From NCBI GenBank assembly GCA_004558805.1, contig SFDE01000015.1, positions 1 through 64,000 on the forward strand: DNA of 64,000 nucleotides, in the 5' to 3' direction. Position 1 is the first letter of the stretch. Each line of letters opens with the position of its first letter. Below are positions 56,931 through 63,983 of this stretch, piece by piece. The notes under the pieces were generated by a model, which ran no database searches, was not told where the DNA came from, and saw only the letters and a list, made by a program, of their open reading frames with translations. The position numbers and the translations under genes are program-made. The DNA comes from Faecalibacterium prausnitzii. GTDB taxonomy: Bacteria; Bacillota; Clostridia; Oscillospirales; Ruminococcaceae.

Positions 56931-57332
56931 TCAGGAAGCGTCGCTTGCTGACTGCACCTCCACGTATACCCCTGCGGGCACACATGCCGCCCATGCTCCC
57001 TCCTGGGACAGCCAGCCGAATTGCTCGCACACATGGTCCGGGCACAGGCTGTCCCGAAAGGAAATGGCGCCGTCCTTTACCTGCAGGTGGACGACGTAGT
57101 CCCCCACCTCGTAAAGGTAATCGTGGTCCTGCTCCAGCGGCAGGGTCTCGGTGATGCCATCACCAAAATCCACCACGGCTTCCAGCCGGGTGCCGCTGCC
57201 CTTCTGCCGGGTGCCCAGTACCAGCAGCAGTACTGCCGCCGCCCCAAGCACCAACAGGGCAAACAGAGCATTTTTCTGCCACGGCTTCCAGCCTGTTCTG
57301 CTGTCTGCCTGCGGCTTCTGATTCATGCTCAT
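56931..57332 (-). CDS. NusG domain II membrane protein
   Basis: 133 aa: a short cytoplasmic N terminus, one helix (about residues 20-43, ALFALLVLGAAAVLLLVLG), then an extracellular NusG-II-type beta-domain with HDYLYEVGDYVVHLQVKDG, FRDSLCPDHVCEQFGWL (two Cys) and the end VYVEV. Such small proteins are widely found beside FMN-binding lipoproteins and Rnf-like electron-transfer genes in Firmicutes. The ATG at 57332 overlaps the flavoprotein stop (ATGA), so they are co-translated. Function unknown; a role with the flavoprotein is inferred. Confidence 0.82.
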   Translation of the reverse strand: MSMNQKPQADSRTGWKPWQKNALFALLVLGAAAVLLLVLGTRQKGSGTRLEAVVDFGDGITETLPLEQDHDYLYEVGDYVVHLQVKDGAISFRDSLCPDHVCEQFGWLSQEGAWAACVPAGVYVEVQSASDAS

Positions 57333-59239
57333 GCAGCGTACTTGCTTGCTGCTGCACCTGCAATGCGACCAAAGACGGTAAAGTCTGCCACAGCGTTGCC
57401 GCCCAGACGGTTTGCACCGTGGACGCCGCCGGTGACCTCACCTGCTGCAAACAGACCGGGGATCACGGAGCCGTCTGCCTTCAGCACTTCGGTGTTGGTG
57501 TTGATCTTCAGACCACCCATGGTGTGGTGGACGCCTGCGGTGACCTTGATGGCATAGTAGGGAGCGGTATCCAGCTTGTTGGCAAAGCTGGTACGACCAA
57601 ACTCGGCGTCGCTCTTTGCCTCCACGCAGCTGTTCCAGTCTGCCATAGTCTGAGCGAAGGCAGCCTCGTCCACGCCCATAGCCTTTGCCAGCTCTTCGTA
57701 GGTAGCACCTTCCACGGTGTAGCCCTTCTTGATGTAGCCCTGGATGACGCTGGAAGCGTCTGCCATTGCCTGATCCACCACCAGCCAGCTGTAGCTGCCG
57801 GTCTGTGCGATCTCGGCGGCGGAGACCACGTCACGGGTGCCCACTTCGTCGATGAAGCGCTTGCCCTCAGCGTTCACAAGGATAGCGCCGTCGCCGCGGA
57901 GACCCTCGGTGATGAGGGCAGCGGTGTTTGCCTCCACGGTGGGGTGGATCTGGATCTGGTCCATGTCCACGGTGTCTGCGCCGATGGCGGTAGCCATCTC
58001 AATGCCCTGACCCTGAATGCCGGAGGCGTTGGTGGTCATAAAGCCCTTCAGCTCGGGCTTGTACTTTACCACCATGTCCAGATTTGCACCAAAGCCGCCG
58101 CTGGTGATCACCACAGCCTTGGCGTTGACAGTAACGGTCTCACCGGAAGCACCGGTTGCCTTGACGCCCACGGCAGCGCCGTTGGCATCGGTGAGGATCT
58201 CGTTGGCGGTGGTGTTCAGCATGATCTGAACGCCAGCCTTCTCGCAGTTTTCCTGCAGCAGGGGGATCATGTAAGAGCCTACAGAGACAGTCTTGCCCTC
58301 TGCATCCACAGGGCGATGGATGCGCTTGACGGATGCGCCGCCAAAGCTGGAAACGCTGTGCAGGGTGATGCCATGCTCATCCAGCCAGTCGATGGCGTCG
58401 GCGCTGTTGGCGCACAGAGTCTGGACCAGAGCGGGGTCGTTGATGCCCTTGCCGCCGATCATGGTGTCCAGCTCCATCAGCTCCACAGAGTCAAAGTAAC
58501 CCACGGGGTTTGCCTGATATGCCGCCCACTGCTCAGAGACGGTCTTTGCCAGCGCAGTGATGGTCTCGTTGTCGGCGTACTTGTCGGCGGCGGTCTTCAG
58601 GGTCTTTTCCACGCCTGCAGACTCGCCAAACTCGTTCTCGTCCTGGTAGACGGTGTCGCCGGCGTTCATGCCGCCGGTGGCACGGACGGAGTTGCCGCCC
58701 ACCATGGGCTGGCTCTCCAGCACCACAACGTTCTTGCCCTCGTTGGCAGCGGTGATGGCAGCAGTCATACCTGCGCCGCCTGCGCCCACGATAACGATGT
58801 CGGCATCGACCACGGCGTCCTCTGCCTTGGTGTCGTCTGCCTTTACCTCAGTCTTGAAGTTCTCGGGGTCGAGACCTGCTGCGGTAAGAGCCGCTGCGGC
58901 TGCCTCCTTGATGGCATTGGAGGTGATGGTAGCGGTGGACACGCCGTCCACAGCAATGCTGCCGCTCTCTGCAATGGCAGTGGGCAGCTGCTCCAGTGCC
59001 ATGGTGCCGATGCCGGGGGTCTCGTCTGCGCCTTCTGCGGTGCAGCCGGTGATCTTGCCATCGGTGAGGGTCAGGGTAACGGTAACATCGCCCATGCCCT
59101 TGGCGGTACCGGTGTATTCACCGGACACGCCGCTGGTGCTGGAGGCGGGCTTGCTGCAGCCGTAGCCCAGCAGGCTGACGGCGAGAATGGCAGACATTGC
59201 CAGCGCTGCCACACTCTTCTTGATTTGGTTCTTTTTCAT
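57329..59239 (-). CDS. FMN-binding, fumarate-reductase-like flavoprotein lipoprotein
   Basis: 636 aa. Signal with lipobox ending at Cys28 (SLLGYGCSK). Residues about 38-120 form an FMN-binding domain with DGVSTATITS at 98-107; Thr104 is the place where ApbE-type enzymes attach FMN covalently. From about 145 it is an FAD-dependent reductase of the fumarate reductase/urocanate reductase type: IVIVGAGGAGMTAAI, VGGNSVRATGGMNAG, VHHTMGGLKIN near 550 and the end GGNAVADFTVFGRIAG. It should reduce an electron acceptor outside the cell with electrons passed via flavins; the substrate is not readable. The ATG at 59239 has AAGGAAG 7 nt upstream. Confidence 0.9.
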   Translation of the reverse strand: MKKNQIKKSVAALAMSAILAVSLLGYGCSKPASSTSGVSGEYTGTAKGMGDVTVTLTLTDGKITGCTAEGADETPGIGTMALEQLPTAIAESGSIAVDGVSTATITSNAIKEAAAAALTAAGLDPENFKTEVKADDTKAEDAVVDADIVIVGAGGAGMTAAITAANEGKNVVVLESQPMVGGNSVRATGGMNAGDTVYQDENEFGESAGVEKTLKTAADKYADNETITALAKTVSEQWAAYQANPVGYFDSVELMELDTMIGGKGINDPALVQTLCANSADAIDWLDEHGITLHSVSSFGGASVKRIHRPVDAEGKTVSVGSYMIPLLQENCEKAGVQIMLNTTANEILTDANGAAVGVKATGASGETVTVNAKAVVITSGGFGANLDMVVKYKPELKGFMTTNASGIQGQGIEMATAIGADTVDMDQIQIHPTVEANTAALITEGLRGDGAILVNAEGKRFIDEVGTRDVVSAAEIAQTGSYSWLVVDQAMADASSVIQGYIKKGYTVEGATYEELAKAMGVDEAAFAQTMADWNSCVEAKSDAEFGRTSFANKLDTAPYYAIKVTAGVHHTMGGLKINTNTEVLKADGSVIPGLFAAGEVTGGVHGANRLGGNAVADFTVFGRIAGAAASKYAA

Positions 59240-59301
59240 GATTTCTTCCTTTTTGATCTTCTTATCCTTGTGGTTTGCTTGAAAAACGTCTATCAGCATA
59301 A

Positions 59302-59340
59302 AAAGGGGGAGCTGCGTATTCGGAACACAGCTCCCCCTTT
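59302..59340 (-). terminator. Intrinsic terminator of the GGGtGRT operon
   Basis: AAAGGGGGAGCTG / CAGCTCCCCCTTT 13-bp stem; minus strand continues TT then ATGCTG. Read-through could feed the flavoprotein gene. Confidence 0.9.
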
Positions 59341-59356: not shown

Positions 59357-60355
59357 TTAGGCGTTAGCCTGCGCAGCAGCAACTGCACATGCAACGGTAG
59401 CACCGACCATGGGGTTGTTGCCCATGCCGATGAGACCCATCATCTCCACGTGTGCGGGCACGGAGGAAGAGCCAGCGAACTGAGCATCGCCGTGCACACG
59501 ACCCAGAGAGTCGGTCAGACCGTAGCTTGCGGGACCTGCAGCCACGTTATCAGGGTGCAGGGTACGACCGGTGCCGCCGCCGGAAGCAACGGAGAAGTAC
59601 TTCTTGCCGTTCTCGATAGCCCACTTCTTGTAGGTGCCGGCAACCAGGTGCTGGAAGCGGACGGGGTTGGTGGAGTTGCCGGTGATGGAGCACTGGACGT
59701 CCTCCTTCTTCATGATGGCAACGCCTTCCATAACGTCGTTGGCGCCATAGCACTTGACGGCTGCCCGCTCGCCCTCGGAGAAGGGAACTTCCTTCACGAC
59801 GGTCAGGGTCTGAGTGGGGATGTCGTACTCAGTCTGCACGTAGGTGAAGCCGTTGATACGGGAAATGATGTAAGCGGCATCCTTGCCCAGACCGTTCAGG
59901 ATGACACGCAGGGGGGTCTTGCGGACCTTGTTGGCAGTGCGGGCGATGCCGATGGCACCCTCAGCAGCTGCAAAGGACTCGTGACCTGCCAGGAATGCAA
60001 AGCAGGTGGTGTCCTCGCTCAGCAGGCGAGCACCCAGATTGCCGTGACCCAGACCCACCTGACGCTGCTCAGCCACAGAGCCGGGGATGGTGAATGCTTC
60101 CAGACCTTCGCCGATGGCAGCAGCGCACTCGGCTGCATCGGTGAGACCACGCTTCACAGCGATGGCGGTGCCCAGAGTGTATGCCCAGACAGCGTTGTCG
60201 AAGCAGATGGGCTGCACGCCGCGGACGATCTTGTCGCAGTCGATGCCCTTAGCGAGGAGCATCTCGTTGCAGGCGTCCAGAGACTCCAGACCGTTAGCCT
60301 TCAGGCATGCCTCGATCTTCGGCATGCGGCGATCCATAGATTCAAAAGTTGCCAT
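59357..60355 (-). CDS. GGGtGRT protein (unknown function)
   Basis: 332 aa, matching the GGGtGRT family, named after the motif at residues 258-265 (SGGGTGRT, followed by LHPDN). Further conserved-looking pieces: GHGNLGARL at 103-111, CFAFLAGHESFAAAEGAIG at 118-136, KCYGANDVMEGVAIM near 201 and MIGMGNN-like GLIGMGNNPMVGATVACA at 307-324. No signal, no membrane helix. Six cysteines or so are scattered (29, 40, 51, 77, 118, 202, 222, 323). It follows the NifU-like gene after 17 nt in one operon. Known from many gut Firmicutes as a pair with a NifU-like protein; enzymatic role not described to my knowledge. Confidence 0.9.
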   Translation of the reverse strand: MATFESMDRRMPKIEACLKANGLESLDACNEMLLAKGIDCDKIVRGVQPICFDNAVWAYTLGTAIAVKRGLTDAAECAAAIGEGLEAFTIPGSVAEQRQVGLGHGNLGARLLSEDTTCFAFLAGHESFAAAEGAIGIARTANKVRKTPLRVILNGLGKDAAYIISRINGFTYVQTEYDIPTQTLTVVKEVPFSEGERAAVKCYGANDVMEGVAIMKKEDVQCSITGNSTNPVRFQHLVAGTYKKWAIENGKKYFSVASGGGTGRTLHPDNVAAGPASYGLTDSLGRVHGDAQFAGSSSVPAHVEMMGLIGMGNNPMVGATVACAVAAAQANA

Positions 60356-60372
60356 GAGTCGTTCCTCCTCTC

Positions 60373-61074
60373 TTATTCCTCACGCGGGTCGATGTACTTG
60401 ACAGCACCCTGATCAGCGCTGAAGCGACCGTAAGTACCCACGTTCTTCTCGTAAGCCTCGTTGGGGCTCTTGCCGTGACGGATATCCTCCATCATCTTGC
60501 CCAGCTTGACGAACTGATAGCCAATGACCTCGCCGTTTGCGTCCACAGCCAGCTTATTGATGTAGCCCTCGGTGAGCTCCAGATAACGGACGCCCTTCTC
60601 CTTGGTGGAGAAGATGGTGCCGGTCATGGAGCGCAGACCCTTGCCCAGGTCGTCCAGACCTGCGCCGATGGGCAGACCGTCCTCAGAGAAAGCGGTCTGG
60701 CTGCGGCCGTAGACGATCTGCAGGAACAGCTCGCGCATTGCCACGTTGATGGCATCGCACACCAGGTCGGTGTTCAGAGCTTCCAGGATGGTCTTGCCGG
60801 GCAGGATCTCGCCTGCCATTGCAGCAGAGTGGGTCATGCCGGAGCAGCCGATGGTCTCCACCAGAGCTTCCTCGATGACGCCGTTCTTGATGTTCAGGGA
60901 CAGCTTGCAAGTGCCCTGCTGAGGAGCACACCAGCCCACACCATGGGTGTAGCCGCTGATGTCCTTGATCTCATAAGCCTTGACCCATGCGCCCTCTTCG
61001 GGGATGGGAGCCGGACCATGCTTAGGACCTTTGGTGATCGGGCACATATTCTGTACTTGCTGCGAATAGGTCAT
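60373..61074 (-). CDS. NifU/IscU-like scaffold protein partnered with GGGtGRT
   Basis: 233 aa. The middle (about 45-135) has an IscU/NifU-N look: GTCKLSLNIKNGVIEEA and VETIGCSGMTHSAAMAGE, in which Cys56 and Cys77 sit where IscU has its first two ligands. The third IscU Cys has no obvious match (QTAFSED), but Cys11, Cys49 and Cys106 are extra. A unique C-terminal part (150-233) ends DQGAVKYIDPREE. The ATG at 61074 is 9 nt from AAAGGAG; the one at 61080 only 3. First gene of the pair, behind a good promoter. It is not beside SUF or ISC genes, so it may serve its partner. Confidence 0.85.
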   Translation of the reverse strand: MTYSQQVQNMCPITKGPKHGPAPIPEEGAWVKAYEIKDISGYTHGVGWCAPQQGTCKLSLNIKNGVIEEALVETIGCSGMTHSAAMAGEILPGKTILEALNTDLVCDAINVAMRELFLQIVYGRSQTAFSEDGLPIGAGLDDLGKGLRSMTGTIFSTKEKGVRYLELTEGYINKLAVDANGEVIGYQFVKLGKMMEDIRHGKSPNEAYEKNVGTYGRFSADQGAVKYIDPREE

Positions 61075-61191: not shown

Positions 61192-61220
61192 ATTATAGAG
61201 AAAGCAGCAGGATTTTGCAA
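61192..61220 (-). promoter_or_regulatory. Promoter of the NifU-like/GGGtGRT operon
   Basis: Minus strand TTGCAA, 17-bp spacer, TATAAT; leader about 110 nt. Confidence 0.85.
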
Positions 61221-62741: not shown

Positions 62742-63983
62742 ATGAAAACACAGGCTTTAAAAGGTATGCGGGACCTGCTGCCCGCCGAGCAGACCCTGCG
62801 GGACCACATTCAGGGCAAGATCCTGGAGACCTACCGTGCCGCCGGCTTTGAGCGGATCTCCACCCCTATGCTGGAGGATATGGAGAATCTGGACAAGTCC
62901 GAGGGCGGCGACAACCTGAACCTGATCTTCAAGGTGCTGAAGCGGGGCGACAAACTCACCGCCGCCCTTGCCACCGGGGACCCCAAGCAGCTTTCCGACA
63001 TGGGTCTGCGCTACGACCTGACCCTGCCCCTTTCCCGGTACTACGCCGCCAACAAGGATAAGCTGCCCAGCCCCTTTAAGGTGATCCAGACCGACCGGGT
63101 GTTCCGTGCCGAGCGTCCTCAGAAGGGTCGCCTGCGGGAGTTCGTCCAGTGCGACATCGACATTCTGGGAGACTCCTCCCCCAACGCCGAGGTGGAACTC
63201 ATCGACGTCACCACCCGGGCACTGCTGAACATTGGCTTTACCGGCTTTACCGTCAACATCAACGACCGCCGCATCCTCCGGGGGATGCTGGAGAGCATGG
63301 GCTTTGCTCCCGACACTCTGGACTCTGTCTGCATCACCTTTGATAAGATGGACAAGATCGGTGCCGAGGGGGTCAAGGCAGAGCTTACCGAAAAGCAGCT
63401 GCCGGAAGCCGCCGTCAACGCCCTTGCAGACTTCATCGCCGCCGGTGCGGTGACCCTGGATGCCGTTGCCGCCCGCTGTGCCGACCCCGCCATTGCCGAC
63501 GACCTGAAGTACGTCCTTGCCACCGCCAGCGCCATTGCCGGCGGACGGTATCAGGTGGCATACTGCCCCAGTCTGGTGCGGGGTCAGGGCTATTACACCG
63601 GAATGGTGTTCGAGGTCACCTGCCCGCAGTTCAGCGGTGCCGTGGCAGGCGGCGGGCGCTACGACAACATGGTAGGCAAGTTCCTGGGCACCCAGGTGCC
63701 TGCAGTGGGCTTCTCCATCGGTTTTGAGCGGGTCTGCGGCATCCTGCTGGAGCAGGGCTACCAGATCCCCGGTGCAAAGCAGAAGATTGCCCTGCTCTAT
63801 GGCAAGGATGCAGACTTCACCGCCGTCCTCGCTAAGGCAGACGCCCTGCGCAGCAGCTACAACGTCACCGTGCTGCCCATGGGCAAAAAACTGGGCAAGC
63901 AGCTGGGTCAGCTGGAAGCCGCAGGCTTTGCCGGTGCCGCTTTTATGGACAAGGACAAGGTCAAGATCTTTGCTCAGCAGTAA
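62742..63983 (+). CDS. hisS: Histidyl-tRNA synthetase
   Basis: 413-aa class II synthetase charging tRNA-His. LKGMRDLLPAEQ opens it; motif 2 is FKVIQTDRVFRAERPQKGRLREFVQCDID in parts near residue 107-135; the His-specific segment GQGYYTGMVFEV near 280; motif 3 GFSIGFERV near 325. The C-terminal anticodon-binding domain starts about 345 and ends KVKIFAQQ. It is a little shorter than the average 420-430 aa form. GAGAGGAA lies 8 nt before the ATG. The window ends 17 bases after its stop, so its downstream partner (often aspS) cannot be seen. Confidence 0.95.
   Translation: MKTQALKGMRDLLPAEQTLRDHIQGKILETYRAAGFERISTPMLEDMENLDKSEGGDNLNLIFKVLKRGDKLTAALATGDPKQLSDMGLRYDLTLPLSRYYAANKDKLPSPFKVIQTDRVFRAERPQKGRLREFVQCDIDILGDSSPNAEVELIDVTTRALLNIGFTGFTVNINDRRILRGMLESMGFAPDTLDSVCITFDKMDKIGAEGVKAELTEKQLPEAAVNALADFIAAGAVTLDAVAARCADPAIADDLKYVLATASAIAGGRYQVAYCPSLVRGQGYYTGMVFEVTCPQFSGAVAGGGRYDNMVGKFLGTQVPAVGFSIGFERVCGILLEQGYQIPGAKQKIALLYGKDADFTAVLAKADALRSSYNVTVLPMGKKLGKQLGQLEAAGFAGAAFMDKDKVKIFAQQ

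Follow-up and report, generated by a model that had tools for sequence, protein, structure and literature searches.

In a 64,000-nucleotide stretch of Faecalibacterium prausnitzii DNA (contig SFDE01000015.1, positions 1 to 64,000; hereafter the window), two adjoining genes encode a NifU-like protein and a partner that carries a GGGtGRT motif. We found that these genes accompany each other almost without exception, that the NifU-like protein bears three invariant cysteines predicted to hold an iron-sulfur (Fe-S) cluster, and that the codon usage of the pair is ribosomal-like. Our favoured interpretation, which we hold tentatively, at somewhat less than an even chance, is that the pair may act in anaerobes as an Fe-S enzyme of two subunits, for which a scaffold fold would have been re-used. 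The family of the partner is already named in Pfam (PF14057), and what is new relative to that entry is its near-obligate companion, the cysteine triad of that companion, and the pattern of iron response and expression gathered together with them. An earlier note on this DNA had called the family undescribed; a name existed, and Pfam indeed gives it no function.

The two genes occur together

The genes lie side by side and in the same order in all 86 loci of a first set (L001-L086), made up of six records from a plasmid collection and the best 80 of at least 587 genome places. Since those 80 places had been picked by similarity, even draws of genomes were also used. In a draw by phylum, 10 of 199 genomes contained PF14057, and the same 10 contained a NifU-like match of at least 378 bits that always adjoined it across a gap of 17-69 nucleotides; the next best NifU-like match scored 33 bits. 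A draw by class, which overlaps the phylum draw in some genomes (G001 among them), gave each gene in 91 of 196 genomes and both in 90. The exceptions, one each way, were fragments, located at a contig start in G347 and consisting of a partial match in G206. PF14057 was also detected in 47 of 61 genomes drawn by family and in 1 of 14 control genomes, Bacteroides ihuae, and the pair is present in records titled Bacteroidota, Actinomycetota, Gammaproteobacteria, Spirochaetes and Gastranaerophilales. The earlier note had proposed co-occurrence as a check, and by these counts the genes are nearly always together.

Among the alignments made, the fused alignment A3 took all 22 loci with both genes in frame and TAA stops only, together with hand-picked rows (28 of the other 58 for the partner and 28 of 54 for the NifU-like protein). 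A4 and A5 had 35 rows each, and A6 held the window and 72 of 80 loci.

A variant layout was seen in Parabacteroides, where a 63-residue open reading frame (ORF), possibly encoding a membrane protein, sits between the two genes (L003:5800-5991); most other gaps are too short for one.

A cysteine triad on a predicted scaffold-like fold

Cys49, Cys77 and Cys106 of the NifU-like protein are unchanged in every locus that covers them (Table 1), in a conservation set of 126 loci in which L093 is the same place as L007. Their spacing, C-x27-C-x28-C, was found in 119 of 119 loci matched by the pattern, with 7 of the 126 unmatched. Cys56 is nearly as constant (121/123), and Cys11 is not conserved (89/122). 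The earlier note had seen no clear third cysteine and had listed Cys11, Cys49 and Cys106 as extras; the invariance of all three residues makes the third cysteine clear, and both Cys49 and Cys106 belong to the triad. In the predicted model the triad occupies IscU-like places within an IscU fold that spans residues 38-125, and a further alpha/beta stretch is predicted at 170-216. From this arrangement we predict that the protein holds an Fe-S cluster on the three cysteines.

The protein resembles IscU, NifU and SufU in its predicted fold and in the matching model places of its three cysteines, and differs from them in having PF14057 as its companion in almost every genome examined. We compared it with the IscU, NifU N-terminal and SufU families (PF01592, TIGR01999, TIGR03419, TIGR01994). 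Its Pfam score for PF01592, 18.5 bits, lies under the 22-bit cut-off, and its NCBIfam scores of 24, 19.3 and 17.8 bits fall below the equivalog cut-offs of 187.9, 192.4 and 92.5. LPPVK, the chaperone motif of the IscU type, was present in 0 of 119 loci, and in the profile alignment a Gln takes the place of the NPxCGD cysteine.

The nearest complete genome that we found, Faecalibacterium sp. I4-1-79 (L007), encodes pair proteins 99.7% and 98.3% identical to those of the window. At E 0.001 or better it has one PF01592 match, which is a canonical NifU encoded immediately behind a NifS-type desulfurase. That protein has C-x24-C-x43-C spacing, NPKCGD and LPPVK, in contrast to the shorter second interval of the pair protein and its lack of LPPVK. 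Judged in this relative, the pair's NifU-like protein is not the ordinary scaffold; the earlier note had named the opposite outcome as fatal to its proposal. In the window itself, tblastn with NifS, NifU, SufD, SufS and SufU queries (SufB and SufC were not tried) matched only the pair's own gene, in agreement with the earlier statement that no SUF or ISC genes are nearby. Distance from SUF is no rule, because in Collinsella aerofaciens the pair adjoins such genes: it follows sufB-sufD-sufS-sufU, with a transposase gene between (L002:1-3364).

The GGGtGRT partner

The partner is a full-length member of PF14057, scoring 611.9 bits over residues 4-329 against a gathering score of 27. The segment FSVASGGGTGRT, which holds the GGGtGRT motif, is identical in 126 of 126 loci, and the motif was also read in the window; the conserved SGGGTGRT loop described earlier is thus upheld. 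Near-invariant residues of polar kinds number 56 in the partner. An AlphaFold2 model (mean predicted local distance difference test, pLDDT, 81.9; predicted template modelling score, pTM, 0.83) predicts a helical N-terminal part at about 1-110 and a Rossmann-like domain at about 112-325, and we infer that the SGGGTGRT loop may be a phosphate-binding loop. As modelled, the Rossmann-like domain is without an assigned relative. FtsZ and tubulin have a GGGTG loop motif; fold comparison of the partner with them gave a Z at background level, and there was no sequence match to them in Pfam or the PDB.

Expression and response to iron

Codon adaptation was 0.752 for the partner and 0.742 for the NifU-like protein, against a median of 0.483 for 103 background ORFs. 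The reference set consisted of 19 ORFs from the S10/spc operon region of G001, and the background comprised ORFs of at least 200 residues taken from five 20-kb stretches of G001 and from the window. Of overlapping ORFs the best-adapted one was retained, a choice that raises the background. Among these ORFs the partner ranks 5th and its counterpart in the relative 2nd.

In published data, relatives are reported to produce the pair in large amounts and to lose it when iron is low. Several gut and rumen metaproteomes contain one of the proteins or both, and one paper describes the partner as little characterised and as strongly expressed in vivo across distant taxa (PMC11204068). Three rumen metaproteomes have 'Nitrogen-fixing protein NifU' among their 25 leading families, with shares of 0.28, 1.72 and 1.47% next to 0.21, 1.20 and 0.95% for pyruvate:ferredoxin oxidoreductase; the table that gives these shares does not name GGGtGRT (PMC6043501). 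We take this label to denote the pair's family because Collinsella and Parabacteroides genes beside GGGtGRT bear it; the smaller protein is often so labelled, misleadingly. Two papers on colorectal or rectal cancer list both proteins among those lowered (PMC13041051, PMC12014591).

Iron affects the pair in two phyla. In Bacteroides thetaiotaomicron, BT0173-BT0174 fell 12.8 to 11-fold in low iron, where ferritin changed by -2.7, the hydrogenase locus by -2.9 to -3.6 and fumarate reductase/Rnf by -2.5 to -3.4 (PMC10434189). In Clostridium pasteurianum the partner was higher with iron, 7.1-fold early and 2.2-fold late, and spots of the NifU-like protein were up to 3.7-fold higher (PMC5395762).

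Interpretation of the pair

A two-subunit Fe-S enzyme seems to us the best fit because the pair is a bulk protein that is dropped at low iron, with a three-cysteine site on one subunit and invariant polar residues on the other. In such an enzyme the NifU-like subunit would carry the cluster on its triad, and this cluster would be a [4Fe-4S] in which substrate can reach one iron. Three-cysteine ligation in the Fe-S hydro-lyases likewise leaves one cluster iron free for substrate. The GGGtGRT protein would touch the NifU-like subunit and would provide a likely phosphate-binding substrate pocket beside the cluster, for a ligand that may be phosphorylated or acidic. The reaction would be a bulk, iron-costly step that is given up under iron shortage, and the IscU fold would probably have been recruited from scaffolding into catalysis. 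Class I fumarase and L-serine dehydratase are examples of two-subunit or three-cysteine [4Fe-4S] hydro-lyases. The pair resembles them in manner of working only, in that one protein bears three cysteines and the other has many invariant polar residues; it differs in the predicted IscU fold of the cysteine-bearing protein and in the lack of a sequence match.

Several results weigh against this enzyme. The pair matched no Fe-S hydro-lyase family in Pfam or NCBIfam. Neither protein model had a Foldseek match at E 0.001 or better, and the best Z in fold comparison of the partner was 8.8, near the stated background of the tool. The conserved loop is itself modelled with low confidence (pLDDT under 50 over residues 260-283), and a model of the fused pair (pLDDT 70, pTM 0.64) yielded no interface. 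Nor do neighbours point to a substrate: in a census of the three ORFs closest to the pair on either side, made with a simple picking rule, no third gene was conserved, and the commonest ORF type turned up at 9 of the 86 loci, in differing positions. Of the 196 class-draw genomes, 105 lack the pair, although 186 of the 196 have hydrogenase and 189 have rubrerythrin, so anaerobes of this sort do not need it in general. Its iron response is not unique either, since in the B. thetaiotaomicron data the nitrite-reductase operon is also named among the most lowered (PMC10434189).

The fuller proposition, that the fold used for building Fe-S clusters now serves as catalytic subunit in an abundant enzyme of gut anaerobes, gated by iron, whose substrate is bound by a GGGtGRT partner of no known family, we regard as doubtful. 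If it were true, a common unexplained protein of the gut and rumen would represent a new class of Fe-S enzyme. Were the pair an Fe-S enzyme of any kind, it would hide a bulk reaction of anaerobic metabolism under iron control. The earlier suggestion of a cluster-carrying pair tied to anaerobic metabolism stays plausible, as the carriers here are mostly anaerobes, the link to iron is published and a cluster-carrying subunit is likely.

An Fe-S store or buffer, likely filled with iron and sulfur in plenty and drawn on in shortage, is an unlikely alternative that would make the pair an iron reserve outside ferritin. It would account for the abundance of the proteins in the published data, for a stand-alone unit with no pathway genes alongside, and for a B. 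thetaiotaomicron iron response larger than those of ferritin, hydrogenase and fumarate reductase. However, about 60 kDa of protein per single cluster would be poor storage, and the strong conservation of polar residues would better suit an active site. At a loose cut-off ferritin was less frequent in genomes with the pair (34/91 versus 73/105, P 8e-6), but this contrast, in which kinship is ignored, faded to 32/91 versus 56/105 (P 0.014) and then to 30/91 versus 49/105 (P 0.058) as weak matches, several of them at places of rubrerythrin matches, were dropped. Replacement of ferritin by the pair was considered on these same counts and rejected. Both the enzyme and the store are open to direct test through the three cysteines and the invariant loop.

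We find it rather improbable that the NifU-like protein is a dedicated Fe-S scaffold or carrier, likely serving one client with GGGtGRT as a nucleotide-using helper. The predicted IscU fold and the Collinsella pair beside SUF genes speak for such a carrier, but LPPVK is missing, the cysteine spacing is unlike that of canonical NifU in the relative, tblastn found neither NifS nor SufS in the window, and no client gene is conserved among the neighbours of the 86 loci; the reported rumen abundance, near that of pyruvate:ferredoxin oxidoreductase, would also seem to exceed the need for a carrier. A zinc-dependent, SufU-like sulfurtransferase with the GGGtGRT protein as likely client or partner is highly improbable, given the strong positive dependence on iron in the published data from two phyla, the lack of a SufS match to the window and a SufU model score of 17.8 against a cut-off of 92.5.

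The locus in the window

The features of the locus are collected in Table 1. A spacer of 17 nucleotides (60356-60372) separates the two genes, and this short gap and the lack of a third conserved neighbour fit the self-contained two-gene unit proposed earlier. The strong promoter also claimed for it is partly borne out: the TTGCAA and TATAAT hexamers and their 17-nucleotide spacing recur upstream of the I4-1-79 copy, somewhat farther from the gene, but the site by itself is at chance level (1 found versus 0.8 expected). The strong terminator held up in a shuffle test, with a hairpin energy of -36.8 kcal/mol against a shuffle mean of -17.6; a pattern scan did not list this hairpin.

Table 1. 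Features of the NifU-like/GGGtGRT locus, in window coordinates.
Feature	Position	Strand	Remarks
GGGtGRT gene	59357-60355	(-)	332 aa; Pfam PF14057, E 3e-184
FSVASGGGTGRT codons, residues 254-265	59561-59596	(-)	begins in last predicted strand
Counterpart of duplicated GGGtGRT 3' end	59357-59461	(-)	
NifU-like gene	60373-61074	(-)	233 aa; IscU fold predicted over residues 38-125
Cys49 codon, predicted cluster ligand	60928-60930	(-)	Cys in 123/123 loci covered
Cys77 codon, predicted cluster ligand	60844-60846	(-)	Cys in 125/125 loci covered
Cys106 codon, predicted cluster ligand	60757-60759	(-)	Cys in 126/126 loci
Promoter-like TTGCAA-17-TATAAT	61192-61220	(-)	10/12 hexamer positions matched
Terminator-like hairpin, U tail	about 59300-59340	(-)	z -6.45; 3' of pair

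The pair is flanked by an FAD/FMN-binding flavoprotein and an MFS (major facilitator superfamily) transporter. The flavoprotein, downstream at 57329-59299, has FMN_bind and FAD_binding_2 domains, is fumarate-reductase-like, and has a high codon adaptation of 0.715. At the window end (62742-63983) lies an ORF of 413 residues that resembles histidyl-tRNA synthetase and is possibly of the HisZ type.

The 3' end of the GGGtGRT gene as a likely integration site

A second copy of the last 28-36 GGGtGRT codons is present in 6 of the 91 class-draw carriers and 4 of the 47 family-draw carriers. It lies on the same contig, downstream and on the same strand, in 6 of these 10 cases and on another contig in 4. 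The distance from gene end to copy is 1.7 to 15 kb in L128-L132; four of these share 76-95 bases between gene end and copy at 95% identity or more, and L131 shares 42. A tyrosine recombinase recognised by Pfam directly follows the GGGtGRT gene in L128 and L132, and in L133 an ORF similar to tyrosine recombinases (not tested by Pfam) follows the 3'-end copy; none was listed in L129-L131, which were read only as short stretches. Among the cargo between gene and copy, which is likely defensive, are a type III restriction-modification pair accompanied by a WYL-domain protein and, further, a TIR/SEFIR protein (L128:4543-9942, L132:2352-3806).

Three of seven matching faecal phage records (MT839063, MT836003 and MT835897) start at base 1 within the last 60 GGGtGRT codons, and these starts are possibly element ends or host flanks; a fourth, MT838301, starts mid-gene and is uninformative. 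Because 3'-end copies, adjoining recombinases and phage records starting there coincide, the gene end likely serves as a repeated integration (attachment) site. In the window, the GGGtGRT gene copy is full length.
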